Source: a virus
IMG/VR virus record: IMGVR_UViG_3300028024_000174
Coordinates: 1-21,844 of that record
DNA length: 21,844 nucleotides
Reading direction: 5' to 3' (one strand)
A program made the translations under genes and the position numbers. Shown here piece after piece: positions 1,659 through 19,944 of this stretch. Each line of letters starts with the position of its first letter. The first letter of the stretch is position 1. The notes under the pieces were generated by a model. It made no database searches and had not been told where the DNA came from. It saw only the letters and a program-made list of their open reading frames with translations.

Positions 1659-2513
1659 TCACACCGCCTTGTAAGAGGGGTATACCGTGATGGTCGCCTT
1701 CCCTGAAATCTCGTTGTCCGCGCTCAGGCGCAGGGCAGACAGCCCGCGCGGGAGCTTGAAGAAGTTGTCGTTCTCTATGGAGATGGCGCCGATCAGGTTT
1801 TCCTCCGAACCGTCCGGGAACCGTTTTTTGAGGTACAGTTCATCGTCCTTTGTGCAATAAAGTAGCGTTTGCCCTTCCTCGATCACATTGGTAACCGCGA
1901 GTTGGGCGGTGAGCGTTCCAAGAATATATAAGGAAAGAGCGGGGTTCACGAGCGGGCCTTCGGCTTCCAAGAGCAGAGGAGCATCGAAGTGCCCATCATT
2001 GGTGATCTCGATGTCGTTGGCGGAAACGTCGCTGTAGGCGTACTCATATGCGCGTTCATACCGCAGTTCCGTGCCTCCTTGGTCGGCTACGATGCGCAGG
2101 CTATCCCGCTTATACCAAGCGCTTTTCAGGGTCAGAGTAACATCGCACTCCATGCGGCCACCCTTGATTTCGCCCTTTGTGACCTGTTCAACCTCCGCAT
2201 CTGCCAGAAATTCTCCAGTGGCCGATTCGTAGCGCGGGGCATATACCAGGCGGAGCGTTCCGGCGGAGGATATGAAGTTCACCAGCGCCCGATAGCCGTC
2301 ATATGCGCGGGAATCGTCGAACGCAGCAACGCCCGTAAAGGAACGCAGCGGGAACGCCTCTTCTACCACCCGCGCGGCGCTGCCCACCAGTTCGTAGCTG
2401 CGGGATATGGCCAGCCCGAGGCCGGCGGGCGAGGTCAGTAGCGCCCCCGCCTTCAGGTCCTGCAGGTTGAAGCGCTGGCGGAGCGCGTTTTCAAGATAAA
2501 ATCTGCGGTGCAA
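1659..2513 (-). CDS. Distal tail protein (Dit), siphovirus tail component
   Basis: 284 residues from a TTG codon at 2513. I chose this start because the protein then begins MHRRFYLENALRQRFNLQD, the usual N-terminus of clostridial Dit proteins, and an AGGGGG ribosome binding site lies about 6 nt upstream. The frame stays open to 2633, but that longer reading would overlap the divergent plus-strand gene. Dit forms the ring joining the tail tube to the baseplate. Its place before the Tal-like gene supports this. Oddly, the first codons of this gene were copied into the tandem duplication next door: the dead copy at about 3206-3300 has its start codon changed from TTG to TAG and an internal stop. 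The living copy is intact. Transcription from the late operon must cross two antisense genes to reach it. Confidence 0.72.
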   Translation of the reverse strand: MHRRFYLENALRQRFNLQDLKAGALLTSPAGLGLAISRSYELVGSAARVVEEAFPLRSFTGVAAFDDSRAYDGYRALVNFISSAGTLRLVYAPRYESATGEFLADAEVEQVTKGEIKGGRMECDVTLTLKSAWYKRDSLRIVADQGGTELRYERAYEYAYSDVSANDIEITNDGHFDAPLLLEAEGPLVNPALSLYILGTLTAQLAVTNVIEEGQTLLYCTKDDELYLKKRFPDGSEENLIGAISIENDNFFKLPRGLSALRLSADNEISGKATITVYPSYKAV

Positions 2514-3201
2514 AAGAACGCCCCCTGTTCGTTGTGGTTTTATCTGCCGGAAAAAGCGTTTGAATATGAAACCGCCACATACAATGCTGTAAGCAGATAA
2601 GGGCAGGTGCGTTATGAGCTGGCAAGAAAACATACGGGTGCTTTGGACGGACCATCTGGTTTGGATCAGACAATTTCTGATCAGCCTGATGTTCCGACTT
2701 CGAGATTTAAGCTATATCTCGATACGCACCCTGCAAAATGCTATTGATTTCTCAGCGCAGCTTACTCCCTTCTACGGCTTGGAGAACGCGAAGCTCTATG
2801 AAACTCTGCTTGCCGAGCGGGTTCTGCTGTTGGCCGAATTGGCGTCCACCATAAAAATGGACGGTGATACTTCTGTGCAATTATCAAAACTGCAGAAAAA
2901 TGCGGATGATACCGCCGCCCTGTTTGCCGGTTTGAACCCTTATTGGGATAAGGCTGTATGGCAGCAGATGCTATATACGCAGTATCGGCTCGAAGAACAG
3001 CTCATACGGCAGATCGCGCAAGATAGGTTCTCCACGTCGGTTCCCATATATGACGCAATCTATCAAAATGCCTTGAAGATGGCGGCCTACACGGCACAAT
3101 TTCCAAAGTTCGCATATCCTCTAGGCACCGCTCTTGCGTTTCCTAGTACGCCATCCCCAGCCGGCGATTGAAGGTATTGACCAGCATGTTGATCTGCCCC
3201 T
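2414..3201. repeat. Tandem duplication, left copy (~790 bp)
   Basis: This unit holds the 5' end of the living Dit gene, the Dit/gene intergenic region, the whole plus-strand 185-codon gene and a dead copy of the tape measure 3' end. It matches 3204-4003. The two ATG codons (2614 and 3401) are 787 bp apart, as are the two CAGGTCCTGCAGGTTGAA tracts (2454 and 3241). At the far end the offset is 802 bp, because this copy lacks 15 bp (five codons) present in the other. The left boundary is fuzzy: Dit similarity fades around 2412-2420. Confidence 0.85.
2614..3171 (+). CDS. Small helical protein of unknown function, paralogue 1 (reverse to the late operon)
   Basis: 185 residues, plus strand, against the direction of all surrounding phage genes. 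The protein is probably mostly helical. Recognisable stretches are WTDHLVWIRQFLISLMF (residues 11-27), TPFYGLENAKL (51-61) and LNPYWDKAVWQQMLY (108-122). I recall a widespread uncharacterised Bacillota family with the same pattern (W..H..W.R, RLLQN, PFYG, NPYW), often mislabelled acetylglutamate kinase in databases; nothing in the sequence supports such an enzyme. It is about 80% identical by eye to the next paralogue and lacks five residues (MIDGI) near the end. The ribosome binding site is weak. A TACAAT -10-like hexamer about 40 bp upstream is kept in both copies, but no good -35 is visible. The last codons run antisense over the dead tape measure fragment. Expression apart from the late operon, perhaps in the lysogen, is an inference. 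Confidence 0.7.
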   Translation: MSWQENIRVLWTDHLVWIRQFLISLMFRLRDLSYISIRTLQNAIDFSAQLTPFYGLENAKLYETLLAERVLLLAELASTIKMDGDTSVQLSKLQKNADDTAALFAGLNPYWDKAVWQQMLYTQYRLEEQLIRQIAQDRFSTSVPIYDAIYQNALKMAAYTAQFPKFAYPLGTALAFPSTPSPAGD

Positions 3202-3202
3202 G
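3143..3202 (-). pseudogene. Dead fragment of tape measure protein C-terminus
   Basis: Read on the minus strand, this stretch encodes QINMLVNTFNRRLGMAY and a TAG stop, almost the same as the true end of the tape measure gene at 3945 (QINMLVNTVNRRLGMAL). There is no gene body upstream of it. It is a by-product of the tandem duplication and overlaps the 3' end of plus-strand paralogue 1 just as the living tape measure end overlaps paralogue 2. Confidence 0.85.
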
Positions 3203-3205
3203 CCG

Positions 3206-3300
3206 GGCCCGAGACCGGGCTGGGGTCGGCAGCACTCGCCCAGGTCCTGCAGGTTGAACCGTTACCGAAGCGCATTTTCAAGGTAAAATCTGCTGTGCTA
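3206..3300 (-). pseudogene. Dead fragment of distal tail protein N-terminus
   Basis: Minus-strand remnant of the Dit 5' end. The former TTG start codon is now TAG (3298-3300). The next codons still read HSRFYLENALR, then an in-frame TAA, then RFNLQDL, after which similarity decays. It ends at the junction with the tape measure fragment near 3203. It cannot be translated as Dit and marks the duplication junction. Confidence 0.85.
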
Positions 3301-3400
3301 AAATTCGCCCACCTGCTCGTTGTGGGTTTATCTGCCGAAAAGGCGTTTGAATACGAAAATGTTACATACAATGCTGTAAGCAGAAAGAGGCGGTATCTCT

Positions 3401-3973
3401 ATGAGCTGGCAGGAAAGTATACGTGTGCTCTGGACGGATCATCTGGCTTGGATTAGGCAACTCTTGACCAGCCTGATGTTCAGGTTGCGGGATTTAAGCT
3501 ATGTAACGATACGCACCCTGCAGAACGCCATCGATTTCTCAGCGCAGCTTACTCCCTTCTACGGCTTGGAGAACGCGAAGTTGTATGAGACTCTACTGGC
3601 CGAGCGGGTTCTGCTGTTGGCCGAATTAGCCTCCACTTTAAGAATGGGTAGCGATGTTGCCCTCCCAATGACAAAATTGCATGCAAACGCCGACGACACC
3701 GCGGCCCTGTTTGCTGCACTGAATCCCTATTGGAATAAGGCCGTGTGGCAGCAAATGCTGTATACGCAGTATCAGCTTGAAGAGCAGCTCATACGGCAGA
3801 TACTGGAGGACAAATACTCTACGTCGGTTCCCATATACGATGAAATTTATCAGAACGCCCTGAAGATGGCGTCCTATATGATTGATGGGATTACAGCGCA
3901 ATTTCCACAGTATGCATACCCTGTGGGCACGGCTCTTGCGTTTCCTACAGCGCCATCCCCAACCGGCGGTTGA
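3401..3973 (+). CDS. Small helical protein of unknown function, paralogue 2 (reverse to the late operon)
   Basis: 190 residues, the longer member of the tandem pair. It starts MSWQESIRVLWTDHLAWIRQ and keeps all the blocks of its partner: the W..H..W.R N-terminus, TPFYGLENAKL, LNPYWNKAVWQQMLY and a C-terminal TAQFPQYAYPVGTALAFP. Most differences fall in the middle (about residues 80-96), which looks like a tolerant linker between helices. The gene ends at 3973, overlapping the convergent tape measure gene by 29 nt. Its last roughly ten residues (AFPTAPSPTGG) are therefore encoded antisense to tape measure codons and may carry no function of their own. There is no signal peptide or clear membrane segment. 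The family is unknown to me beyond the resemblance noted for paralogue 1. That both copies are open and conserved in protein suggests selection. Confidence 0.72.
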   Translation: MSWQESIRVLWTDHLAWIRQLLTSLMFRLRDLSYVTIRTLQNAIDFSAQLTPFYGLENAKLYETLLAERVLLLAELASTLRMGSDVALPMTKLHANADDTAALFAALNPYWNKAVWQQMLYTQYQLEEQLIRQILEDKYSTSVPIYDEIYQNALKMASYMIDGITAQFPQYAYPVGTALAFPTAPSPTGG

Positions 3974-6299
3974 CCGTATTGACCAGCATATTGATCTGCC
4001 CCTCGTCCAGCGTATTCGTGTACACGTTTAGGGTGATTCGGCTACCGGAGGGTGTGCTTCCTGCGGCGTTTCCGCCGTCCACGGAGATGTTGGCTTTCGC
4101 CCCACCTACGGCGGCGTTTAGCCGGTACATGGCGTCGTCCACGGCCGGGACGCTGCCCGTGATCCCTTGTGCAAGGCCGAGGCTCAGGTTCTTGCCGATA
4201 TCCGCAAACACACGCGACGGCGAGTGGATGCCCAGGGTATCCTTGACGCCGCTGACCAAGCCGTTGAAAAGGCCCGTCACCTTGTTTTTCAGCCAGCTTG
4301 TCAGAGACTGGATGCCCGACCATACGCCCTGCATGAAGCTTTCGCCCAGATCGCCTGCGGCGCTCAGCAGTTTCCCCGCTGACTGGACGAGGCCCGATAC
4401 CAGTGCGCCCATCAACTCTACACCCGCCCGGATGATCTGCGGCAGGTTGTCCAAGATCGCCTGCGCGATCTCCGGGATCATGCCGATCACGGTCTGAATG
4501 AGCTGCGGCAGTGCGTTCAGGATGCCGAGCACCACCGCCAGCGTGATCTGAATACCCGCCTGAATGATCTTGGGCAGGCTCCGCAGGATGGCGCTCACGA
4601 TCTCGGGGATCAGGCCCAGGATGCAGTTCACCAATTGCGGCAGATTATCGAGAATGCCCTGGATCAGCGCCAGCAGCAGGTTCAAACCGGCCTCGATGAT
4701 CTTGGGCAGGTTTTCGGTCAGCGTCCGTATGATCTGCCCGATCGCCTGGATGATCGCGGGAATGAGCTGCGGGATGCTGTTTGTCAGCCCCTGCACCAGC
4801 GCAAGCAATATCTGTATGCCCGCGTCCAATACGACGGGGAGGCTGTCGAGCAGGCTTGTAGCGATCTGCGCCACCATCTGAACCGCCATGTTGGCGAGCG
4901 CGGGCGCGTTGCCCGAGATAGCAGCGATCACGCTTTGGAACATCCCCAGCGCGGCGGCGAGCAGAACAGGGAGTATCTGCGGGAGCGTGGCGATCGCCGA
5001 GGCCGCGAGGCTACTGAGAATCTTGGTGCCCTGCGTCGCAAGCTGGGGCAGCGCCGCCGATATGCGGGCCGATACATCCGTAAGGAGCGAGGATACCGAA
5101 TCCCCCACGGCGCTCCAATCGCCCGTCTGGATGGCACCCGCCGCAGACGCCGCCACCTCGCGCACATGATCGACCACTTCGCCGAGCGCAGGCACGACCG
5201 CCGCGCCCAACGTTTGCGCCAACACCGTGCCGGTGGCCTTCAGGCGCTGCATCCGGTCGTCGAACGCGCCCAGGGCCGTGACGCTGTGATCCCCCAGCAC
5301 CGCGCCGACGCTGTTCGCTTCTTCCGCAAGGTTATTGAGCGCATCCGATCCCGCCGCGATCAGAGGGTTCAGCTCCTTGGCATTCTTGCCGAAAAGCTGC
5401 ATGGCGAGGGCGTCGCGCTCGGTTTCATTGCTCACCTTGCCCAGCGCGCCGATCGCGTCGGTCCATACTTCCTTGCTGCTGCGCAACGAGCCGTCCGAAT
5501 TGGATATGGAAACACCCAGCGCCTTGAATGCCTCCGCCTGCTTGCCGCTGCCGTCGCGTGCGGAATCCATGCTCTTGGTCAGCTTGAACATGGAATCCGT
5601 CATGGTCTCGAGCGGCACGTCCACAAACCGGGAGGCGTAGGATAGCTCCTGCAGCGTTTTCGTGCTGATGCCCGTTTTATTGGAGAGGGTAATCAGCTCG
5701 TCCGCCGCTTCCCCCGCGCCGGTGGTGATCTTCCAGACGCCCGCACCCGCGGCCGCGGCGGCCGCGCCCACGGCGGCGATCCCCGCAACGGCCGCTTTGC
5801 CTATCCCGCCCGCTATGGAACCCAGCATGCCGGAAAAGCCGCGCGTCTTTTCGGAGGCGGTATCCATCTCACGCCCTGCGCTTTCCGCCTCGTTCCTAAG
5901 GGCGTCGATGCGTTCGTCGGCGGTACCGGCTACCGTACCCAGGCCCTGCAGCTCGCCCTCGAACCGGTTGACCTCGCCCTCAGCCTTGGCGATCTCGCGT
6001 GTGAAGGCGCGGTACTGCTCCTCGGAAATCTTGCCTTCGGCGAACTGCTGGTTGACCTGTGCCTGTGCGATGCGCAAGGTATCCAGTTTTTCCTTGGCAT
6101 TCGCTACAGCCTTTGCAAGTAGCTCTTGCTTCTGGGCGAGCAGTTCCACATTGCCGGGGTTCAATTTGAGGAGGGATTCGACCTGTTTCAGTTCCGATTG
6201 TAAGCTGCGCGCCTTCTTGTTGACGTCCTCCAGCGCTTTCCCGAGACCCGTGGTGCTGGCGCCGATCTCCACCGTAATACCCTTGATCGTGCCCGCCAC
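3945..6299 (-). CDS. Tail tape measure protein
   Basis: 784 residues from a GTG at 6299, preceded by AAGGAGGG; the upstream in-frame ATG would place the start inside a terminator hairpin, so GTG is preferred. The protein sets tail length and occupies the tail lumen. The N-terminal 160 residues are charged coiled coil, followed by an alanine/glycine-rich hydrophobic stretch (AAVAGIAAVGAAAAAAGAG), a globular part typical of TP901-type tape measures, and a hydrophobic helical region with a 44-residue repeat (three copies, DNA 4446-4841). After that come NKVTGLFNGLVSGVKDTLGIHSPSRVFADIG, a motif found near the end of many Bacillota tape measures, and a C-terminal NRRLGMAL. The 3' end overlaps the convergent plus-strand gene by 29 nt and was copied into the tandem duplication. 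Confidence 0.93.
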   Translation of the reverse strand: MAGTIKGITVEIGASTTGLGKALEDVNKKARSLQSELKQVESLLKLNPGNVELLAQKQELLAKAVANAKEKLDTLRIAQAQVNQQFAEGKISEEQYRAFTREIAKAEGEVNRFEGELQGLGTVAGTADERIDALRNEAESAGREMDTASEKTRGFSGMLGSIAGGIGKAAVAGIAAVGAAAAAAGAGVWKITTGAGEAADELITLSNKTGISTKTLQELSYASRFVDVPLETMTDSMFKLTKSMDSARDGSGKQAEAFKALGVSISNSDGSLRSSKEVWTDAIGALGKVSNETERDALAMQLFGKNAKELNPLIAAGSDALNNLAEEANSVGAVLGDHSVTALGAFDDRMQRLKATGTVLAQTLGAAVVPALGEVVDHVREVAASAAGAIQTGDWSAVGDSVSSLLTDVSARISAALPQLATQGTKILSSLAASAIATLPQILPVLLAAALGMFQSVIAAISGNAPALANMAVQMVAQIATSLLDSLPVVLDAGIQILLALVQGLTNSIPQLIPAIIQAIGQIIRTLTENLPKIIEAGLNLLLALIQGILDNLPQLVNCILGLIPEIVSAILRSLPKIIQAGIQITLAVVLGILNALPQLIQTVIGMIPEIAQAILDNLPQIIRAGVELMGALVSGLVQSAGKLLSAAGDLGESFMQGVWSGIQSLTSWLKNKVTGLFNGLVSGVKDTLGIHSPSRVFADIGKNLSLGLAQGITGSVPAVDDAMYRLNAAVGGAKANISVDGGNAAGSTPSGSRITLNVYTNTLDEGQINMLVNTVNRRLGMAL
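4446..4841 (-). repeat. Three 132-bp in-frame repeats in the tape measure gene
   Basis: Units start (minus strand) at 4841, 4709 and 4577, with a partial fourth at 4445. Each encodes 44 residues of the form LP.II.AG...LLALI.GIL..LPQL...I..IPEI..AIL... The spacing is exactly 132 bp each time, and 44 is four times the 11-residue helical period known in tape measure proteins. Confidence 0.85.
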
Positions 6300-6324
6300 A
6301 GCAATCCCTCCTTTCGGGTGCAAC

Positions 6325-6349
6325 AAAAAGGACCGCTGAATAGCGATCC
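6325..6349 (-). terminator. Intrinsic-terminator-like hairpin before the tape measure gene
   Basis: On the minus strand an 8-bp stem (6330-6337 with 6342-6349, one G-U pair, 4-nt loop) is followed by TTTTT. It ends about 25 nt before the tape measure GTG start, so it may attenuate rather than simply end transcription. Confidence 0.6.
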
Positions 6350-6423: not shown

Positions 6424-7770
6424 TTACTCCGTAACCAAGGCATTCAACCGGGGGTGCGTACCCTCCAGATTGTTATACACCCAGACTTTATCCCCCCATA
6501 TCCATAACCCACCGCTGACGGCCGGGGAAATGTCGGCGGTGGATTTTACCGGGGGGTATAGATCTGTGTAGTCCCAACCGTGCCGCGAAATGCCGATTTC
6601 GCTCAGAGGGATTTGGTACAGCAGGCTGTTCTCCCAAAGGAAATAGAGCGTATCGTTTGCGATGTTGATTTTCGCAGTGTCAACGCCGCCCTCGAGCCAA
6701 TCGATCACCAGCTCCGGCGTGCCGCCTTCCAAAGGAATACGCAGCAACTGCGTATGATGCTGCCCGGAACCCACAAAATCTCTATTGCCTATGTAGTATA
6801 TGTACCCATCGTAAACTGCGGCGATATATATCGCGTCCATAAAGGGAAGGACCTCGCTTTGCCCGGTTGTGAGATCCATTTTGCGGGTGACATAGCTCGC
6901 CTCGTTGGTAGCGGCGTCGCGCTCTTGCGCCGTGTACAGCAGGCAATCCTGACCGAACGTCATATAGATGATCCCCGGATAATCCTTATACGGGTACTCA
7001 ATAATCTTCTGCACCGTTCCATCCAATATGGAACGGCGTTCAAGGCCGATTATGCCATCCGGCCTTTTTGTTTCTTTGTCAATATGCTCCGACGTATCGG
7101 TTTCGTAATAGCACCAGCTTCCGACAATGGTGCACTTGCAATTATATCTGATATAAAACTCATCCAGTTTTTCCAAGGCGGCATCAGGATGATTGACGTC
7201 CTTCTTGAACAGCCTGGCCTTGCGCGCTTCTAAGTATGGGTTGTCCCGATCGGTCTCGGGAGCGGCCAGGGTAACGTAGCAGATATGCGCTTTATCCACA
7301 ATCCCCATTCCGACAAATTCGCCCAGGTCTCTGGCTGTGTCTATGATGTCCGCGCCGCCCTCGGCGGCGGATACCGTGCCGCCAATCATCTCGCACGTAT
7401 CGACGTCCGCCTTAAAGACGTTCCCCGAGGAATTCTGGTATACATACAGCATGCTGCCGTCGCTGACCATAATGTCACCGTGAGCATCCGTGCACATGTC
7501 CGGGTTTCCCATGAGACGGTTCATATTCACGTTGTTAATACCGCCGGCGCCATCCGAAGAGGCGTTCCATCCGATATTGGAGGATTTGGCTTCTTTATCC
7601 GGCGTGCTTTGGGCAGCCGCGGCTGAGCCGCCGTCCGTCTGTCCGGGCTGCGCCGTAGCGGCGCTGGCTGCTGATGCTTTTTCCATAACAGGGTTCGTTG
7701 CCTGATTCGCGCAGGATGATTCGAGTAAGCAAAGGCACAATAGTAAAACTGCAACGCGAATTCTTCTCAT
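6424..7770 (-). CDS. Predicted secreted lipoprotein with beta-propeller-like (DUF5050-like) region; phage cargo gene
   Basis: 448 residues, ATG at 7770 after an AAGGAG site. The N-terminus is a signal sequence (MRRIRVAVLLLCLCLLESSC), probably cleaved and lipidated at Cys20; the lipobox (LESSC) is not ideal because of Glu at -3. A low-complexity Ala/Ser/Gly linker follows to about residue 80. The rest has repeating blocks of the type DG.IYYI..........LLRIPLEGG.P and NDTLYFLWENSLLYQIPL, as in DUF5050-type propeller proteins of Clostridia. Such proteins sit on the outer face of the membrane; no enzyme motif is visible. It lies between the tail chaperone and the tape measure, where siphoviruses normally have nothing, and has its own terminator. 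It is best read as a cargo (moron) gene altering the lysogen's surface. It could instead be a virion-associated protein, which I consider less likely. Confidence 0.75.
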   Translation of the reverse strand: MRRIRVAVLLLCLCLLESSCANQATNPVMEKASAASAATAQPGQTDGGSAAAAQSTPDKEAKSSNIGWNASSDGAGGINNVNMNRLMGNPDMCTDAHGDIMVSDGSMLYVYQNSSGNVFKADVDTCEMIGGTVSAAEGGADIIDTARDLGEFVGMGIVDKAHICYVTLAAPETDRDNPYLEARKARLFKKDVNHPDAALEKLDEFYIRYNCKCTIVGSWCYYETDTSEHIDKETKRPDGIIGLERRSILDGTVQKIIEYPYKDYPGIIYMTFGQDCLLYTAQERDAATNEASYVTRKMDLTTGQSEVLPFMDAIYIAAVYDGYIYYIGNRDFVGSGQHHTQLLRIPLEGGTPELVIDWLEGGVDTAKINIANDTLYFLWENSLLYQIPLSEIGISRHGWDYTDLYPPVKSTADISPAVSGGLWIWGDKVWVYNNLEGTHPRLNALVTE

Positions 7771-7915: not shown

Positions 7916-8493
7916 TTATATCGCTAGGTTGTCAATATCCGCCTGCGTCGCTTCGCGCTCGGGGTTTTTCGTGTCCACCAGGAAATCGGCATATGAAAGC
8001 AAGTCCGAGAAGGTAAGCTCGTCCAGCTCATGGAAAGAAAGCCCGGCGACCTTCCCGAGGTACAGGGCGTCGCGCCAGTCTACGTGTTGGCTGCCGGAGC
8101 CTGCGCCCGCACGCCCAGCAAAAGAAAAAAATTCTCGTTCACCAGCTCCATCGCCACCCGCGACGCCTCCACCATGTCGTAATCGGCAAGGGCGTCGCTC
8201 CACTCCTCGAACGGCGAAAGGTTCTTATTGGCGATGTAGGCGAACGTCCAGACCAGCCGGCGGACGATCGCGGCGAACTCGAACAGGCCGGATTGCCCCA
8301 GCATTTCAAGCGCATTTGTTTCATCCAGCCCGGAAAGCCCTTCGAGGGTGCGCATATCCGCCATCTGCTTGAGATCGGCGGCGAAGTCCGGTTCCGCTTC
8401 GCCGCGCAGCCGCGCGCGGCAATAATAATATAGGAAATTGGCCGACGCCCGAAGGGGCAAGGTCTGCCCGTTAATTAAAATAGCTCTCTGCAT
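7916..8493 (-). CDS. Tail assembly chaperone GT fusion made by -1 frameshift
   Basis: Product predicted when ribosomes slip back one base on T TTT TTT (8131-8125). It joins the first 123 residues of the G protein to 69 residues read in the other frame (SFAGRAGAGS...QADIDNLAI), giving 192 residues. The extension has no start codon or ribosome binding site of its own. It contains a helical, acidic segment (GLSFHELDELTFSDLLSYADFLVD) like T domains of other siphoviruses. In lambda and many Bacillota phages, G and GT at a fixed ratio chaperone tape measure and tail tube assembly. The slippery site, the frame relation and the location before the tape measure all agree. In this phage the lipoprotein insertion separates GT from its tape measure partner. 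Confidence 0.85.
8080..8493 (-). CDS. Tail assembly chaperone G
   Basis: 137 residues, ATG at 8493 with AAGGAGGG upstream overlapping the stop codon of the major tail protein. This is the unshifted product ending ...VRAQAPAANT at 8080. It is helical (RASANFLYYYCRARLRGEAEPDFAADLKQ... then FAAIVRRLVWTFAYIANK) and matches the size and position of G-type chaperones located between the major tail protein and the tape measure. It should be much more abundant than the GT form. The family name comes from synteny and the frameshift, not from an unmistakable motif. Confidence 0.8.
   Translation of the reverse strand: MQRAILINGQTLPLRASANFLYYYCRARLRGEAEPDFAADLKQMADMRTLEGLSGLDETNALEMLGQSGLFEFAAIVRRLVWTFAYIANKNLSPFEEWSDALADYDMVEASRVAMELVNENFFLLLGVRAQAPAANT
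8125..8131 (-). other. Programmed -1 frameshift slippery site T TTT TTT
   Basis: In the G frame the codons read AAT TTT TTT CTT. The heptamer T TTT TTT lets both tRNAs re-pair after a one-base backward slip, and the new frame stays open to 7916. A GC-rich stretch (GCTGGGCGTGCGGGCGCAGG) follows within 5-25 nt and could form a stimulatory structure, but I could not define a convincing stem or pseudoknot by eye. Confidence 0.85.
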
Positions 8494-11545: not shown

Positions 11546-12241
11546 CTATTTCTGCAATAAAAAAAGCCGCTTTTCCAGCGACTCGATCGGGATACCTGTA
11601 GGTTTTTCGGGGTGGGGGAGCTTCTCCAGGATGGAGTTGGTGACCGCTTGCCTGCTGAAGAGTAAGCCGTCCTCCGCGCCGGGCGGGGATTCATCCTCCT
11701 TGGAATACAGAACCGCATCCGCGAAGCCCAGTTCCACGGCCTTTTTGGCGTTTAACCAGGTCTCGGCGTCCATGAGGTGGGAGATGCGGGAGCGGGACAG
11801 CCCGGATTTCAGCTCATACGCGTTGATAATGCTTTCCTTGACCTCGTCCAGCAGGTCGATTGCCTTCTGCATTTCGTTTACATTTCCCCAGGCGACGGTC
11901 ATGGGGTTATGGATCATGAGCATACTGGTGGGCGACATGTACACCTCACCGCCGGCCATGGCGATGACCGAAGCGGCGCTGGCCGCGATCCCGTCCACCT
12001 TGACGGTGACATGCCCTTTGTACTCCATGAGCATGGTGTAGATCTGGGACGCGGCGAACACGTCGCCGCCGGGGCTGTTGATCCATACGGTGACGTCGCC
12101 TTCCTCCGAAAACAGCTCGCAGCGGAACTGCTTGGGCGTCACCTCGTCGCCCAGCCATGTTTCCTCCGCAATGGCGCCGTCCAGCCGCAGCGCGCGGGAG
12201 CCGTCCTCGTTTTTCACCCAGTTCCAAAAGCGGCTATGCAT
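11546..12241 (-). CDS. Prohead protease, ClpP type
   Basis: 231 residues, ATG at 12241 after AAGGAGGAGG. Serine protease of the ClpP/crotonase fold that cuts the capsid scaffold domain. Visible motifs are INSPGGDVFAASQIY (residues 54-68), GIAASAAS with catalytic Ser88, MLMIHNP with His111, and a probable Asp158 in SHLMDAETWL. The length is normal. The C-terminal tail of about 55 residues is variable in the family. The start lies 7 nt inside the end of the HNH gene, so the ribosome binding site is part of the HNH coding region. A terminator-like hairpin overlaps the last codons (11559-11583). Confidence 0.93.
   Translation of the reverse strand: MHSRFWNWVKNEDGSRALRLDGAIAEETWLGDEVTPKQFRCELFSEEGDVTVWINSPGGDVFAASQIYTMLMEYKGHVTVKVDGIAASAASVIAMAGGEVYMSPTSMLMIHNPMTVAWGNVNEMQKAIDLLDEVKESIINAYELKSGLSRSRISHLMDAETWLNAKKAVELGFADAVLYSKEDESPPGAEDGLLFSRQAVTNSILEKLPHPEKPTGIPIESLEKRLFLLQK
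11559..11583 (-). terminator. Terminator-like hairpin overlapping the protease gene end
   Basis: A 7-bp stem (11565-11571 with 11577-11583, one G-U pair on the minus-strand RNA) followed by TTTTTTT. It encodes ESLEKRLFLL of the protease C-terminus and stands just before the capsid ribosome binding site. Confidence 0.5.
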
Positions 12242-12911
12242 CTGCCTCCTCCTTTCGAATCGCGTTCAACTTGGCATACTCGCCGAAATAATAAGAAGCG
12301 GCGTTGTTGTAAGCAATCGCCGCTTCTTCGGGTGTCTCAAAATATCCTAAGAACTTAAATCGTCGGTCCGGATGAATGTGCGCCATATACCTTCCTTTCG
12401 ATTTATCAAAGCACACGCCTTTATAGCCGGTTGAGCTGTTCCGGCGTATTTGTTGGTTGTAACAATTCTTGTGCTGTGTACAGCGTCGCAGGTTACGCTT
12501 ACGGCAGTCAGAAGGATCTCCGTTGATATGATCAACTACTGTACCGCTTGGTACGCCCAAAAGATACCTGTGCAGTTTTATCCTTTTTCCACTTTCAGAG
12601 ACCGCAAGCACGTAACCTTGGGAATCTACGCTCCAAGAGCATATTTTAACTTTATTGATGTCTTCGGCATCAAATTTGAATGTTCGGCCGCTTGCCACTT
12701 TGCAATACGCGACATCCCCAGCTTCGGAATAAGTATTACAGTTCCCGCAGGTTTTGGTGTGATTGCTTCGCAGGAAAGAACCTCTCACAACGGTTTCCTT
12801 CCCGCAATCACACCTGCATCTCCACATGGTGTCATGCCTACGATAGGATCCGGCCTCGGCGAGCACAGATAAGTGATTGAATTTTCTGCCCGCCATCTCA
12901 ATCTTGTGCAT
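12234..12911 (-). CDS. HNH homing endonuclease with AP2 DNA-binding domain
   Basis: 225 residues from the second of two adjacent ATGs (12911; the first, 12914, sits only 2 nt from GAGGAGG). Layout: a short N-terminal region with CRCDCG...CGNC cysteines (residues 32-58, possibly zinc-binding), an HNH_3 type nuclease core at about 112-150 (KLHRYLLGVPSGTVVDHINGDPSDCRKRNLRRCT, with DH at 127-128 and N140), and an AP2 domain at about 163-215 (GYKGVCFDKSKGRYMAHI...FLGYFETPEEAAIAYNNAASYYFGEYAKLN). Such genes are selfish endonucleases moving between phages. It overlaps portal and protease at both ends, and codon usage is AT-richer than theirs. Nearly the same GGAGG...GATGCA string flanks both ends, which may mark the insertion. 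Confidence 0.9.
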   Translation of the reverse strand: MHKIEMAGRKFNHLSVLAEAGSYRRHDTMWRCRCDCGKETVVRGSFLRSNHTKTCGNCNTYSEAGDVAYCKVASGRTFKFDAEDINKVKICSWSVDSQGYVLAVSESGKRIKLHRYLLGVPSGTVVDHINGDPSDCRKRNLRRCTQHKNCYNQQIRRNSSTGYKGVCFDKSKGRYMAHIHPDRRFKFLGYFETPEEAAIAYNNAASYYFGEYAKLNAIRKEEADA

Positions 12912-14130
12912 CATGCCCTCCTCTTGAGGAATAAGCCGCGCCCGCGTCTCTAAGTCTGACCATATTGCCGTTAAGAACATAGAAATTGCCGCCTTCTTCC
13001 TCTGGGATCAAATTCAGATCTTCGAGCCGACGCACATCGTTTGGAGAGAGAAAACCATTCTGAATGCCGACGGAGTAACCTTGCATCCGGCTTTGGTAAT
13101 CGCCCCTGAGGAGGCCGTCTACGTTGAAACGGGCGAAGTAGATCGGCTTCTCGGAAGGAAGCAGCAGCGCCTTGGCGATCGCCTGCTCCCAGCGCACCAC
13201 CCAGGGGTCCAGCGTGTACTTTACGAACTCCAACGACTGCTGTTCGATGTTGGAAAAACTGGATTTGTCGAGGTCGCCCACCATGTGCGGAGGCACCCGG
13301 AAGATGCGGGCGATCTCGTTGAGCTGGAACTTCCGGGTTTCCAGGAACTGCGCCTGCTCTGGGGGAATGCCGATCGCCTGAAACTTCATGCCCTCCTCGA
13401 GCACGGCGATCCGGTGGGCGTTGCCGCTACCCTGATACACGGCGTTCCAGCTTTCGCGCACACGCTTGGGGTCCTTCACGACGCCGGGATGTTCCAATAC
13501 GCCGCCGGGATTGGCGCCGTTGGCGAAGAAGGATGCGCCGTACTCCTCGCAGGCGATCGCTATGCCGACGGCGTTCTTGGCCATGGCGATGGGCGAATAC
13601 CCCACGAGGCCGTCGAACCCGAGGCCGGGGATGTGCAGCACGTCCTCTGGCCGGAGGATCACAGGGGCGCCGTCCGTCCGGTATTCGTAGTAAAGCTGAC
13701 CGGAGGCGGTGCGGTCGACGGTCATTTTATTAGGAAGCAACGGGTACAGCGCCACGATCCGCCCCGCGCCGTCCCGGATGATCTGCGCGTAGGCGTTGCC
13801 CCACAGGAGCAGGTGGCTCATGAGGGTTTCCCGGAACACGAAGGAAGTCATTTCGGGATTCGGCTCGGTATGGAGCAGGTAGTACAGCGGGTGATCGGTC
13901 GCTTTCTCTTTCCCGCCGTCCGGCTTGTAGCGGTATAACTGGAGCGGCAGGCCGGCGATCGCCTCGGCCAGGATGCGCACGCAGGCGTACACCGCCGTGG
14001 TCTGCATGGCCGTGCGCTCGTTTACCGCCTTGCCCGAGGGCGTCCCGCCGAAGAAGAAGCTGTACTCGCTGCTGGGGAGGCGGTTTTGGGGCTTGTCGCG
14101 GGAACGGAACAAAAACTGAAATGGGTACAA
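12898..14130 (-). CDS. Portal protein, HK97 family
   Basis: 410 residues from a TTG at 14130 with AGGAGG 8 nt upstream. The longer frame to 14172 would run through a terminator hairpin and is rejected. The protein begins MYPFQFLFRSRDKPQNR, as portal proteins of this family do, and contains AVYACVRILAEAIAGLPLQLY, WGNAYAQIIRDGAGRIVALYPLLP, DVLHIPGLGFDGLVGYSPI and RIFRVPPHMVGDLDKSSFSNIEQQSLEFVKYTLDPW, all conserved portal blocks. It forms the 12-mer DNA gate of the head. It lies before the protease, as usual, but is separated from terL by a GH5 gene and from the protease by an HNH gene. Confidence 0.94.
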   Translation of the reverse strand: MYPFQFLFRSRDKPQNRLPSSEYSFFFGGTPSGKAVNERTAMQTTAVYACVRILAEAIAGLPLQLYRYKPDGGKEKATDHPLYYLLHTEPNPEMTSFVFRETLMSHLLLWGNAYAQIIRDGAGRIVALYPLLPNKMTVDRTASGQLYYEYRTDGAPVILRPEDVLHIPGLGFDGLVGYSPIAMAKNAVGIAIACEEYGASFFANGANPGGVLEHPGVVKDPKRVRESWNAVYQGSGNAHRIAVLEEGMKFQAIGIPPEQAQFLETRKFQLNEIARIFRVPPHMVGDLDKSSFSNIEQQSLEFVKYTLDPWVVRWEQAIAKALLLPSEKPIYFARFNVDGLLRGDYQSRMQGYSVGIQNGFLSPNDVRRLEDLNLIPEEEGGNFYVLNGNMVRLRDAGAAYSSRGGHDAQD

Positions 14131-14226: not shown

Positions 14227-15687
14227 CTATTGAACACACTCCATAATTGCTTTCAGCAAATCAGGAAATGCCCATTGCATATTATGCCGATCAAATAAAG
14301 GAAAATTCTCGTTCGCGCCCTCTGATTCTTTCCAGCCGCATTCCCACCAAAAACAGGGTATGCCAAGATTACGGGCTTTTTTTATTATGTACGTCGCTTG
14401 GTCAATCCTTTCTTCAATAGGCATTGCCGCAGTACTGCCCCACTCCCCAAGAATAATCGGTATTCCTGTCTTATTAATATATTGTTTAATCGTTTTGAAT
14501 TCTTCATCAACTTTCTTCGTGTTTAGAGAATTTGAGCTGCTCCATTCTGTAACAGGGCCCCCGTCGTCATTCTGATAGTAATAGTGGACTTCAACCATTA
14601 GTTTGTCATCATTGGGAATATTTAAGTATTGCAATTCACTTGCGTTGTTCAATGCTGGGCTCAAAGCAAGTACGCGTTTTTCATTGTTGCCGCCGCTACT
14701 TCGGACTGTATCATAAAATAATTTGTTCAGTTCATTAACACGATCACGCTGCATCTGCTCCATATCTTTTTCAGAACCTGTTGAATGTAAAACGCTATCA
14801 CTCATACACGGTTCATTCATGGGTTCAAATATCAAATAATCATCGTATGACGAAAAGCGATCGGCTACCTGTTTCCAAATAGCTTTAAATCTGGCGTCAA
14901 CATAACTTTTATACTCCGGCCGCATCCAGTCCTCAGCCCATTTATCTCCTACCCAAGAACGGTTGAGGTAATCGTAATGGGAATTGAGAATGCAGTACAT
15001 CCCATTATCCAAAATAGCGCTTACATACTGTTCGACGGTATTCAGGAAATCGTCGTCTATTTTGTATGTTTGATCGTTCGTATAAAGCGACCATGAAACG
15101 TTAAGCCGTATGGAATCATACCCGGCTTCCTTAAAAATGCGGATCATATCGGTAGTGGGAGGAACGTCTCCCGTCTTTGTAAGATAATAATGGAGCTTGT
15201 CCAATCCGTTATGCTTGATCGCATAAGGATCAAAACCATGATTGAAATCCCAATCGATCACATCTAAGGCGCTTGCATAGTTTGTTCCGATTTTCATTTC
15301 AGAAAGAGCTTGCTTCGCTGTATTATCCCTCATGTTGACGGTATTGGTAACAGTGCAGGTATAGACAACTCCATCCGCCTTGCCTGTTATTGTTGCTATC
15401 CCGCCTTTATGTCGGCCAATGACAATGCCATTCTGATCTACACTGGCAACATAAGGATTTGAGGATGTCCACATCACATTCTGAGCGTCAGATACTACAA
15501 GTTTAATAGTTTCAGTGGGTTTGAGTGGAGCGGATTCATGATTAATCGCTGATTGCATAGTAGGAACAGGCGTAGAAGTTTTAGTCTCTCCAAGAATAGG
15601 CGAAGCGGCAATGTGAGTTGTACTCGAGGCACATGCCGCCAACGATAACAGTAAGATTATTGAGAATGCAAAGGCCACTTTTTTCAT
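14227..15687 (-). CDS. Secreted GH5-like glycoside hydrolase lipoprotein with Ig-like domain; phage cargo gene
   Basis: 486 residues from the ATG at 15687. It has a lipoprotein signal (MKKVAFAFSIILLLSLAAC, lipidated at Cys19), a Ser/Thr/Pro-rich linker, a bacterial Ig-like (BIG2) domain at about 59-118 (VMWTSSNPYVASVDQNG..), and a glycosidase domain at about 140-480. Cellulase-family GH5 hallmarks are visible: SIRLNVSWS (Arg194), IFEPMNEP with acid/base Glu292, VEVHYY, IILGEWGS with nucleophile Glu415, and CFWWECGW. It should cut beta-1,4-linked polysaccharide outside the cell, anchored to the host membrane; the substrate cannot be told. The gene is clearly AT-richer than its phage neighbours, and it has its own promoter (15747-15775) and terminator. 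It is therefore a foreign cargo unit, not a structural gene. Confidence 0.88.
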   Translation of the reverse strand: MKKVAFAFSIILLLSLAACASSTTHIAASPILGETKTSTPVPTMQSAINHESAPLKPTETIKLVVSDAQNVMWTSSNPYVASVDQNGIVIGRHKGGIATITGKADGVVYTCTVTNTVNMRDNTAKQALSEMKIGTNYASALDVIDWDFNHGFDPYAIKHNGLDKLHYYLTKTGDVPPTTDMIRIFKEAGYDSIRLNVSWSLYTNDQTYKIDDDFLNTVEQYVSAILDNGMYCILNSHYDYLNRSWVGDKWAEDWMRPEYKSYVDARFKAIWKQVADRFSSYDDYLIFEPMNEPCMSDSVLHSTGSEKDMEQMQRDRVNELNKLFYDTVRSSGGNNEKRVLALSPALNNASELQYLNIPNDDKLMVEVHYYYQNDDGGPVTEWSSSNSLNTKKVDEEFKTIKQYINKTGIPIILGEWGSTAAMPIEERIDQATYIIKKARNLGIPCFWWECGWKESEGANENFPLFDRHNMQWAFPDLLKAIMECVQ

Positions 15688-15750
15688 TGCGTAAACCCTA
15701 CTTCCGTGCTGATTAATGCGTAAACCTGGTGGCACCAATATACGGAAGTA
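15688..15750. repeat. Direct and inverted repeats in the GH5 leader, possible operator
   Basis: TGCGTAAACC occurs twice (15688-15697 and 15717-15726). TACTTCCGT (15699-15707) is the exact inverted copy of ACGGAAGTA (15742-15750), and the latter overlaps the -10 hexamer. The arrangement could be a regulator site. The ribosome binding site of the GH5 gene is hidden in this region and is not obvious. Confidence 0.5.
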
Positions 15751-15775
15751 TAGCATAATGGCTCCTCGAAATCAA
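15747..15775 (-). promoter_or_regulatory. Promoter of the GH5 gene, sigma-A type with extended -10
   Basis: TTGATT (15770-15775), 17-bp spacer, TATACT (15747-15752) preceded by TG one base upstream (TGC TATACT). The -35 overlaps the stop codon of terL. It is the best promoter in the window and would start RNA about 50 nt before the GH5 ATG. Confidence 0.75.
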
Positions 15776-17440: not shown

Positions 17441-17899
17441 TTATTCCACGCGCATCCTGCGCAGGGGCTTCGCGGAGTACCGCGCCGCGCGCAGCAGCGT
17501 ATCCGGCCGGAGGCCGGCGTCGCGGTACCCGTCCAGAATGACGTTGTAGTAGTACAGCCCCGGCCCGCCCATGGGCCTGCCGTCGTTCATGATGTAAACC
17601 ATGGCGGAAACCGGCCTCCCTTTGAAATCAATCGTCAGCGTTTCTTTCCGGTACAGGTGGGGCCAGCCTTCGTAGCGGTCCAGCGCCGCCTCGTCCTGCG
17701 GGGTAATCTCCCACAGCAGCGCGGGCACGCGCCCGTGCTCGTAGGGTTCGATCGTGGCCACCGCGTTGCCGTTACCGCCCCGGAACAGGAGCCGGTAGCC
17801 CGGTAGTTCCATGCTGCCCAACACCCGCGCTGTGGGGCACCTGTGCGCCATCTGCGCGAGGTTCATATTGCTGCCGTAAGCAAGGTATATCTTGTTCAT
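17441..17899 (-). CDS. Gamma-glutamylcyclotransferase-like protein
   Basis: 152 residues, ATG at 17899, 13 nt after the amidoligase stop, with AGGAG overlapping that gap. It has the AIG2/GGCT fold signature: LAYGSNMN (residues 6-13), LPGYRLLFRGGNGNAVATIEP, and LDRYEGWPHLYRKE with probable catalytic Glu77. The family cleaves gamma-glutamyl amides, releasing 5-oxoproline. Established work on amidoligases (Iyer and co-workers) noted that such cyclotransferases lie next to GS-fold amidoligases; the pair may make and break, or edit, a gamma-glutamyl-type bond. The substrate here is unknown. It ends its cassette, with a terminator behind it. Confidence 0.85.
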   Translation of the reverse strand: MNKIYLAYGSNMNLAQMAHRCPTARVLGSMELPGYRLLFRGGNGNAVATIEPYEHGRVPALLWEITPQDEAALDRYEGWPHLYRKETLTIDFKGRPVSAMVYIMNDGRPMGGPGLYYYNVILDGYRDAGLRPDTLLRAARYSAKPLRRMRVE

Positions 17900-17912
17900 G
17901 CCGTTCTCCTAT

Positions 17913-18815
17913 CTACGCCGCCGTGCGAAACCGCCAGGCGGCGTTGCCGTCCAGATGCTTGCAGAGGTGCTCGCGGCAGTTTTTGAACTCGTCGCCGATC
18001 AGACCGATGCGGTTGAGGTAGGTGCGCATGGCGAATTTCTCGTTTTCCACCTGCGGCTTCTTGCTGCTGGCGCTCCGCTGCGTGAGCGCCTGGTTGTTTA
18101 GGGCGAGGGCCAGGGCGATGTAGCTGCGTACTTTTCCGGCGTGCAGCTCGCTGTTGAAGCCCCGCAGCTCCACCGTGTGGTTACCCGTGAAAAAGCTGTG
18201 CAGGTTCAGGAAGTGGTACCGGCTGCTGTGGTAGTGCCGCGACCGGCTTTCGCCGTACCCCGCGTACCAAATGTTCTCAATCTGGGCGAAGGTCGCGGGT
18301 CTGGCGGCGTTCATCCGTTGGACCAGGGAGGCGTCCATCTTTTTGCAGAAGCGTACCCGCTCCTCTTCAATCTGGAGGGCTTTGTAAAAAAGGTCGTTTT
18401 TGCTGGCGATGATGTTGATAAAATTGCGGATGCTCCTGGGCGTATGGTCGGCGCCGTCGAGGTGGATGTGGATGCCGCAGGAGGAGTTGGTGAATCCGCC
18501 CGCCTTGCGCAGCCTGCGAATCAGCTCCTGCAGGGTTTCGATGTCGGCGTCGTAGGTCAGGATGGGGCTGACCAGTTCCACCCGGCGGTCGGTGTCGGCG
18601 CAGGTGGTTTGCTTGCCTTCTTTGCGCTGCGGGTAAATGCTGGCGTCGCTCATGATCTTCCAGACCCTGCCGTCGGCCGCCGTGACCTTGCGGGCGTCGT
18701 AGGAATCGTAGGTGGCCTCGACCGTGCCGCCAAGATAGTCGGCGGCAACCCTGGCCGCTTCCGCGCGGGTAATCCCCGTGAACTCCACCTCAATGCCGAA
18801 TCTGCTTGTAAACAC
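17913..18815 (-). CDS. Amidoligase family protein (GS-like fold)
   Basis: 300 residues from a GTG at 18815, 8 nt after AGGAGG; the upstream frame to 18893 has no ribosome binding site. Family motifs are FGIEVEFTGI (residues 6-15), WKIMSDASI, VELVSPIL, SSCGIHIHLDG, RYHFLNLHSFF and TVELRGFNSELHAGKVRSYIALALAL. These fit the amidoligase_2 family, thought to join a carboxyl and an amine using ATP; the Glu and His residues in EVEF and GIHIHLD are the metal/ATP site by analogy. The last ~45 residues (VENEKFAMRTYLNRIGLIGDEFKNCREHL...) are clearly alike to the end of the protein encoded at 19162-19878. A conserved 36-bp element lies upstream. Role unknown: peptide, cell wall or protein modification are all possible. 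Confidence 0.88.
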   Translation of the reverse strand: MFTSRFGIEVEFTGITRAEAARVAADYLGGTVEATYDSYDARKVTAADGRVWKIMSDASIYPQRKEGKQTTCADTDRRVELVSPILTYDADIETLQELIRRLRKAGGFTNSSCGIHIHLDGADHTPRSIRNFINIIASKNDLFYKALQIEEERVRFCKKMDASLVQRMNAARPATFAQIENIWYAGYGESRSRHYHSSRYHFLNLHSFFTGNHTVELRGFNSELHAGKVRSYIALALALNNQALTQRSASSKKPQVENEKFAMRTYLNRIGLIGDEFKNCREHLCKHLDGNAAWRFRTAA

Positions 18816-18860
18816 TGTGGTTTCCTCCTGAGCGTGTATGTTTTTTGCCCTTTGGGCATG

Positions 18861-18896
18861 TACATATATCACTCCGGGGGACTCATATAGCAAGCA
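18861..18896 (-). promoter_or_regulatory. Bipartite element upstream of the amidoligase gene (copy A)
   Basis: Minus strand TGCTTGCTAT, 12 variable bases, GAGTGAT, one base, TATGTA. The same element lies at 19909-19944 upstream of the 'virulence'-type gene, gap-free with 26 of 36 bases equal. It is 46 bp before the GTG. TATGTA could be a -10, but no -35 at the normal distance is evident. Confidence 0.6.
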
Positions 18897-18944
18897 ATAT
18901 CAAAGGGAAAAGCCGACTCAAAATATGGGTGTGTCTCTGCGGTT

Positions 18945-19169
18945 TCAGAGCCTTCGCACAGCGTCCTCGCCATACACGGCGCCGAGGGAAGAGCCGCAAT
19001 CCCAGGAGCAAAATATCGTCCCGGTATCATCCACAAAGTCCACGGCGCCTTGGTCGCCGGGGCACAACTTTGAATAAGGGTCGATCATGTGCACCAGCTC
19101 CACGCGTGTGCCCGCGGGATACTCTTTGCGAAGCCGCGCCACGGTTTCCTTCGAAGCGAACCTATTCAT
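18945..19169 (-). CDS. DUF4314 family protein
   Basis: 74 residues, ATG at 19169 overlapping the end of the upstream gene by 8 nt, with GGAGG 9 nt before it. It reads EYPAGTRVELVHMIDPYSKLCPGDQGAVDFVDDTGTIFCSWDCGSSLGAVYGEDAVR, the standard DUF4314 pattern (PGTRVELV.M.DPY.KL.PGD.G.V..VDD.G.I...W..GSSL). The family is a small SH3-like beta-barrel of unknown function, often beside amidoligase genes in clostridial mobile elements. It probably supports the two larger partners of the cassette. Confidence 0.88.
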   Translation of the reverse strand: MNRFASKETVARLRKEYPAGTRVELVHMIDPYSKLCPGDQGAVDFVDDTGTIFCSWDCGSSLGAVYGEDAVRRL

Positions 19170-19878
19170 CTGCCGGTGCCTCCGCCGCTTTCCTCGGGGC
19201 GCCGTTCTTGAAAGCCGTGTTGCCCGTCAGGCTTTTCAGCAGGACTTTTCGCGCGGCCTTGTAATCGTCGCCTACGAAGCCCAAACGGATGAGGAAAATG
19301 CGGAAGGCAAATTTCTCGTTCTCCACGGGCTTCTCTTTGGCGGTTACGCGGTGCTGTTCCTTGGCGGCCGCGCACAGGGCGCCGATGAACTGGGTGTAGG
19401 CAGAAACCTCCTCGGGCGAGGCGTCGAATCGGAACCATGGAAACCTGAGCGTCGTTTCCGTCCGCTCCACGGGCAGAGCGTCGGCGCCGATGGCCTTTTT
19501 GATGAGCGCCGCCTTGCTGGCGATGAGCCGGTCAAGGTTCGTAAGCGCGGCGTCGTTGAAGCCGTCCAGCGGCAGCTCGATTGTCAGGCTATCGGGAATG
19601 ATATTTTCCATATGCTCTCCCGCATCGAAAGGCATTCCGACCGCCGGGTCATCCGACGTAAAACCCGCCGCGCGTAATCCCTCCAAAAGTCTCCCTGCGG
19701 TCGCCTCGTCGGTGCACGCATCTAAGGAAAGGGTTCCGTCCTTGCTGATGGTAACGTTCGCCACCGCATACGCAAAGCTCGGCGCGCCCTTATAAACCGG
19801 CGCCCATCCGAGGATTCCGCCCACCGTTTCTGCGAGTTCCTTGCGCCTAGCGCCTGTTACGTTGCATCTGATTTCCAT
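19162..19878 (-). CDS. Phage protein of the clostridial 'virulence protein' type, sharing the amidoligase C-terminal domain
   Basis: 238 residues from the ATG at 19878, 8 nt after AAGGAGG; the frame is open to 20046 but only through the IS edge. It begins MEIRCNVTGARRKELAETVGGILGW. Similar proteins in Clostridia are labelled 'virulence protein' without experimental basis, as I recall. Two recognisable blocks: an N-terminal region ending near residue 110 (TISKDGTLSLDA.TDE...LLEGLRAAGF), and LDRLIASKAALIKKAIGADALPVERTETTLRFPWFRFDASPEEVSAYTQFI. The end (VENEKFAFRIFLIRLGFVGDDYKAARKVLLKSLTGNTAFK) matches the end of the amidoligase. There is no signal peptide. Function unknown; it is the first gene of the cassette and lies just inside the IS. 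Confidence 0.75.
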   Translation of the reverse strand: MEIRCNVTGARRKELAETVGGILGWAPVYKGAPSFAYAVANVTISKDGTLSLDACTDEATAGRLLEGLRAAGFTSDDPAVGMPFDAGEHMENIIPDSLTIELPLDGFNDAALTNLDRLIASKAALIKKAIGADALPVERTETTLRFPWFRFDASPEEVSAYTQFIGALCAAAKEQHRVTAKEKPVENEKFAFRIFLIRLGFVGDDYKAARKVLLKSLTGNTAFKNGAPRKAAEAPADE

Positions 19879-19908
19879 GTTGAAAGCCTCCTTAGCCTCT
19901 TTGGTGAT

Positions 19909-19944
19909 TACATAGATCACTCTGAAGCTGTGGAATAGCAAGCA
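19909..19944 (-). promoter_or_regulatory. Bipartite element upstream of the 'virulence'-type gene (copy B)
   Basis: Minus strand TGCTTGCTAT, 12 variable bases, GAGTGAT, one base, TATGTA, identical in layout to 18861-18896. It is 31 bp before the ATG and ends beside the likely left end of the IS element. Confidence 0.6.

Follow-up and report, generated by a model that had tools for sequence, protein, structure and literature searches.

A tandem of two diverged cargo genes between the tape measure and distal tail protein genes of a Clostridia phage, possibly assembled from the alleles of two related phages

Organization of the tail region and its two tandem units

The window analysed here is the 21,844-base virus record IMGVR_UViG_3300028024_000174, which, as a record of the IMG/VR kind, is presumably of metagenomic origin. 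Its minus strand carries a siphophage late operon comprising terminase, portal, protease, capsid, tail tube, tape measure protein (TMP) chaperones, TMP, distal tail protein (Dit) and baseplate genes, of which Dit and TMP were named by profile and the remaining ones by translation and synteny. The live Dit gene (1659–2513, minus strand) starts with a TTG codon at 2513 and matches Pfam Dit_N (E = 7e-21); the longer open reading frame (ORF) listed from 2633 merely extends this gene mechanically. The live TMP gene (3945–6326, minus strand) matches PHROG 58 (E = 2e-78). Upstream of it lie two overlapping frames (7916–8493, minus strand), as in the siphophage gpG/gpT frameshift pair.

At the TMP/Dit junction, blastn delimits two tandem units. 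Unit 1 (2414–3201) consists of the live Dit start, an intergenic stretch, gene A and a dead TMP end, and unit 2 (3202–4003) of a dead Dit start, an intergenic stretch, gene B and the live TMP end. They form a single alignment of 804 columns with 636 identities (79%; E = 0.0), so their likeness is not due to chance; homology sets in at 2414 and 3207, and about five nucleotides at the junction (3202–3206) lie outside the alignment. A preliminary description of this DNA had reported two units of about 790 bp, each with an open plus-strand gene, the two genes being about 80% identical and differing by a five-codon gap, together with a dead Dit start and a dead tape measure end where the units meet, and the alignment of the units confirms each of these features.

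Gene A (2614–3171, plus strand) encodes 185 amino acids and gene B (3401–3973, plus strand) 190, the last 29 nt of B overlapping the TMP stop on the opposite strand. Both belong to an unnamed cellular family of helical proteins, with B nearer to the family consensus. The two proteins are 82% identical over aligned columns, apart from one clean in-frame gap of five codons missing from A; because this gap removes G163, which is kept in 95% of the cellular family, the deletion is placed on the A side. The dN/dS of the copies had been proposed as a check, a value near 1 counting against selection, and the estimates are far from 1, namely 0.12 (NG86; bootstrap range 0.065–0.186), 0.16 (LWL85), 0.21 (YN00) and 0.17 (maximum likelihood), with dS of 0.54–0.85 across methods and third positions holding 62 of the 105 differences. 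Judged from their sequences, A and B are real protein-coding genes under purifying selection at the amino-acid level. Their GC3 is 55–60%, compared with 70–82% in the tail genes.

Where the two proteins differ, the commoner family residue is found in B at 19 positions and in A at 8, with 7 ties; copy A lacks G163 (95% conserved), I164 (80%) and further consensus residues kept by B. In the family tree A and B are each other's closest relatives (support 100/100), with tip lengths of 0.17 for A and 0.006 for B. The genes also share an uninterrupted stretch of 48 identical nucleotides (P = 0.003), perhaps a trace of subsequent exchange between the copies. On reading of the sequences, no signal or membrane-anchor features were seen in either protein.

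Dead Dit and TMP ends and the origin of the tandem

The dead Dit start (about 3207–3300, minus strand) has TAG in place of the TTG start and TAA in place of CAG at codon 13, so the start change and internal stop described earlier are both present, and small frame-breaking gaps follow beyond codon 20, within 3207–3240. The dead TMP end (about 3143–3201, minus strand), which reads GQINMLVNTFNRRLGMAY before the stop, retains its last codons and stop; it ends in AY, as in relatives, whereas the live TMP ends in AL. Over the 31 alignable codons, all outside the overlap, the dead and live ends show 9 differences per 20.7 synonymous sites and 4 per 72.3 nonsynonymous sites (Fisher P = 1.2e-4), corresponding to a dS of 0.65, which matches that of A and B, and a dN of 0.057. 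As they differ almost solely at synonymous sites, the ends appear to have been functional as they diverged, over roughly the same time as A and B.

This pattern bears directly on the origin of the tandem, which the preliminary description had taken to be a tandem duplication with selection for two copies. In an old duplication in place, one phage would have doubled the segment from Dit start through the gene to TMP end, and selection would have kept both genes as the extra ends decayed. Such an event releases the surplus Dit start and TMP end from constraint, so that any of their sites may vary thereafter. It would account for the tandem layout, for the start loss, stop and gaps of the dead Dit and for the mutual closest relationship of A and B (support 100/100), and the dN/dS of 0.12–0.21 argues against either gene having been neutral throughout since divergence; but a duplication as old as the A/B divergence predicts at least 16 nonsynonymous changes in the dead ends, and only 4 are seen (P about 3e-4). 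With age left free, a likelihood-ratio test on the fragments alone also disfavours it (P = 0.003), the estimated time since the fragments died being 0–0.11 substitutions per site versus about 0.3 per lineage for A and B. Ends carrying the synonymous-only divergence of functional Dit and TMP do not bear out an old duplication in place, which we regard as rather unlikely. The same end state would be reached if one unit of such a duplication had later been replaced through recombination with a diverged relative, or been partially converted; this agrees with the substitution pattern of the fragments, and the 48-nt identical run suggests some exchange between the copies, but it needs an extra event that no observation requires and is in our view unlikely. 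Finally, the record is probably metagenomic and the units resemble the alleles of two strains, as an assembly chimera would have it; the joint, however, links non-homologous sequence (TMP end to Dit start) instead of the shared repeat typical of assembler errors, and the Dit fragment has lesions unexpected in a live allele, which makes a chimera very unlikely.

The better reading of the sequences is that the tandem likely arose recently, when two single-copy alleles that had diverged in two related phages were joined. Two phages, at a dS of about 0.6 from each other, would each have carried a single copy of the gene at the TMP/Dit junction, and a recent non-homologous exchange would have joined the Dit, gene A and TMP end of one to the Dit start, gene B and TMP of the other, so that dead ends of both core genes lie at the centre of the tandem. 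The breakpoints would then have fallen inside Dit and TMP, and the earlier idea of a gene that captured the ends of two phage genes is not upheld. Under this joining, the low dN/dS would largely have been earned in separate genomes, in single copy, and thus shows selection on the gene and not on two copies, so that the selection for two copies put forward earlier finds no confirmation here. Since the joining, both ORFs would have stayed intact while about 94 nt of adjoining Dit lost the start codon and accumulated a stop and gaps; intact ORFs beside a fragment with several lesions point only weakly to the upkeep of both copies today.

The collections searched yielded neither the parental phages nor a phage carrying A or B singly, and relatives with either gene were likewise absent from these collections, which may lack very near relatives of the window. 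Two DNA patterns of the family gave 0 matches in viral contigs, though the patterns match 20 of the 42 known homologues.

The TMP/Dit junction in related phages

The Dit proteins of related phages are 68–74% identical to that of the window, and their TMPs mostly 58–60%. A comparison of junction alleles in relatives, suggested in the preliminary description, covered seven related contigs and yielded both empty and differently filled alleles. Five junctions are empty, with TMP and Dit 4–70 bp apart (L003, L004, L009, L011 and L012, of which L011 and L012 are related prophages in genomes G001 and G002, respectively), and two hold other cargo. In L005, 420 bp of inserted sequence contain a MarR-like gene and a promoter close to consensus (TTGACA-17-TATAGT), and L006 (2520–5998) has 3.5 kb with a lipoprotein gene, a gene for a 736-aa subtilase and a terminator-like site. 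What fills the L006 slot is cargo of a surface or secreted kind. As it is empty or otherwise filled in relatives, the TMP/Dit junction is a moron slot.

The cellular protein family

The A/B family comprises unnamed, helical, cellular proteins of about 165 amino acids. It has no Pfam, NCBIfam or PHROG model, in agreement with the initial view of A and B as uncharacterised, and searches of Pfam, NCBIfam, PHROGs and PDB (by sequence) with A, B and cellular homologues returned nothing reliable except LysM in fusions. An N-terminal LysM domain occurs in some members (L016 and, by reading, L048). The family was found in 35 of 391 Clostridia genomes, with profile E-values down to 1e-34 over residues 5–169 (the whole core), and in 9 of the 101 relatives of G002. 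It also occurs on plasmids of Bacillaceae, Nocardioides, Methylocystis and Bradyrhizobium. Plasmid-borne members from Bacillaceae, Nocardioides and Methylocystis go under the names glycosyltransferase or hypothetical protein. The former annotation, given to Bacillaceae plasmid members, appears to be a mislabel, as tests of homologues revealed no glycosyltransferase domain. A relationship with DUF2935 was rejected (hhalign probability 0.14%, E = 0.42 against one DUF2935 protein). An AlphaFold model made with a two-sequence input has six helices (pLDDT 65, pTM 0.64), and Foldseek searches with it gave no significant matches. No consistent gene neighbours were found beside the cellular homologues.

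The phage and cellular proteins share the length of the core and the residues W11, H14, W17, R19, R38, N42, D45, N96-A97 and N108-P109. The phage copies differ in that H69 (98% conserved), H123 (95%), W93 and Y94 are replaced, and A also lacks G163-I164. Of the histidines at 14, 69 and 123, which are conserved in the family and are not known as family-defining, H14 is kept, and R69 and Q123 stand in both copies. An activity needing the two lost histidines is thus probably gone or changed in the phage lineage, and the phage versions may have been repurposed.

In the tree the phage pair groups with members from the order that holds the related prophages (support 96/93), on a very long stem (2.72), which makes its place unsure. 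The only match to the family in the phage collection, MT837449, resembles chromosomal more than phage DNA by its ORFs. Derivation of the A/B gene from a host is the best explanation.

Distribution in spore-formers and possible role

SpoIVA (spoIVA) is present in all 35 family-positive genomes of the Clostridia sample versus 277 of 391 overall (P = 3e-6, a value without phylogenetic correction, genomes sharing the family not being independent). Nocardioides, Methylocystis and Bradyrhizobium are generally regarded as non-sporulating, yet the family, restricted to spore-formers in the Clostridia sample (35/35), is also found on their plasmids. Of the two genomes with related prophages, G001 has a SpoIVA match and G002 has none. 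Upstream of the homologues, sigma-K-like sites are weakly enriched (12 against 4.6 expected from shuffles in 43 sequences, all 12 cellular), and sigma-E, sigma-G and sigma-A promoters are not clearly above chance. This distribution, the sigma-K-like sites and the LysM fusions suggest a spore-associated role for the cellular family.

In the window, a sporulation -10-like element (CATACAAT) stands 36 nt before gene A (2578–2585, plus strand) and again 36 nt before gene B (3365–3372, plus strand); a matching sporulation -35 is missing upstream of both, and the two sites are treated as leads. The stretch 2200–4200 has a single promoter-like site, against 1.2 expected, and lacks terminator-like sites, and hence nothing above chance flanks A or B. 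The antisense position of the two genes would suit expression during lysogeny and not together with the late genes. The A/B protein would be expressed by the prophage, probably as its lysogenic host enters sporulation, and would have a structural or cell-surface function associated with the spore, a role proposed because of the family distribution, the LysM fusions and the weak sigma-K-like upstream motifs. Alternatively, A and B may serve the phage in exclusion or immunity, directed against competing phages or working at the host surface, with the diverged copies broadening specificity. Cargo in this slot and in the neighbouring one is often surface-directed in the phage group (lipoproteins, subtilase) and copy A has diverged faster, which would suit such a role, but A and B are devoid of visible signal or membrane-anchor features, and we consider it improbable.

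Whether the pair is moron-type cargo of a Clostridia siphophage or prophage that became tandem through the joining of two phages' alleles and encodes a spore-associated, host-derived protein appears to us evenly balanced. The further proposal, that temperate Clostridia phages carry, antisense to the tail genes, a spore-layer protein that has been repurposed and is produced exclusively in sporulating lysogens, here as a hybrid pair of paralogues built by recombination between phages, and that the prophage thereby alters the spore carrying it, is speculative and decidedly improbable.

Comparison with known phage cargo

In the original strict sense, a moron has its own promoter and terminator. 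The A/B pair resembles phage morons in being extra cargo that separates two core genes, is missing or replaced in relatives and has a lower GC3, and a promoter and/or terminator of their own accompanies other alleles of the slot (L005 and L006). In contrast, A and B lie on the strand opposite to the tail operon without a recognisable promoter or terminator, and they form a diverged pair separated by dead ends of core genes. In current use, the term covers any gene insertion in a limited set of genomes (PMC6316719), and the pair shows both an insertion between genes adjacent in relatives and a base composition unlike that of the core.

Homologues of sporulation genes in phages have been published before (PMC10294663; PMC9429907), and the portion of the table examined in the former names regulators and partitioning, repair and cell-wall genes, with the A/B family absent from that portion. 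Like these homologues, A and B bring into a Clostridia phage a family that, in the Clostridia sample, occurs in spore-formers only; unlike them, their family is not among the genes in that portion and their role is only putative. The kind of cargo itself is already known, and the hybrid tandem structure is unusual.

If the joining took place as described, phages can gain paralogous cargo without copying, by uniting diverged alleles of a gene at breakpoints that fall within the core genes on either side. The dead core-gene ends would serve as a built-in clock that separates joining from copying and is usable on other tandem morons. The analysis also brings to attention, as a sporulation candidate, an unnamed family confined to spore-formers in the 391-genome Clostridia sample.

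Other insertions in the window

A gene for a DUF5050-like lipoprotein of 448 aa (6424–7770, minus strand) lies between the TMP chaperone and TMP. In relatives, this gpT/TMP slot holds a small lipoprotein gene (L012), a MazE/YafQ-like pair (L011) or nothing (L003, L004 and L006); as this slot also varies, both sides of TMP are cargo sites in the phage group. An HNH/AP2 homing-endonuclease-like gene (12234–12980, minus strand) between protease and portal is absent from that place in L007. A GH5 cellulase gene (14227–15756, minus strand), with a lipoprotein-like N-terminus and a Big_2-like domain, is found between terminase and portal and has a GC3 of 41% versus 78–79% in its neighbours, constituting carbohydrate-degrading cargo in the head operon. 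Upstream of the terminase, an Amidoligase_2 gene is accompanied by a GGCT-like gene and one more gene (17441–20046, minus strand); the group looks like an amidoligase-GGCT cassette, of which the amidoligase alone is confirmed. A transposase-like ORF, IS1182-like by eye (20060–21844, minus strand), reaches the edge of the window.
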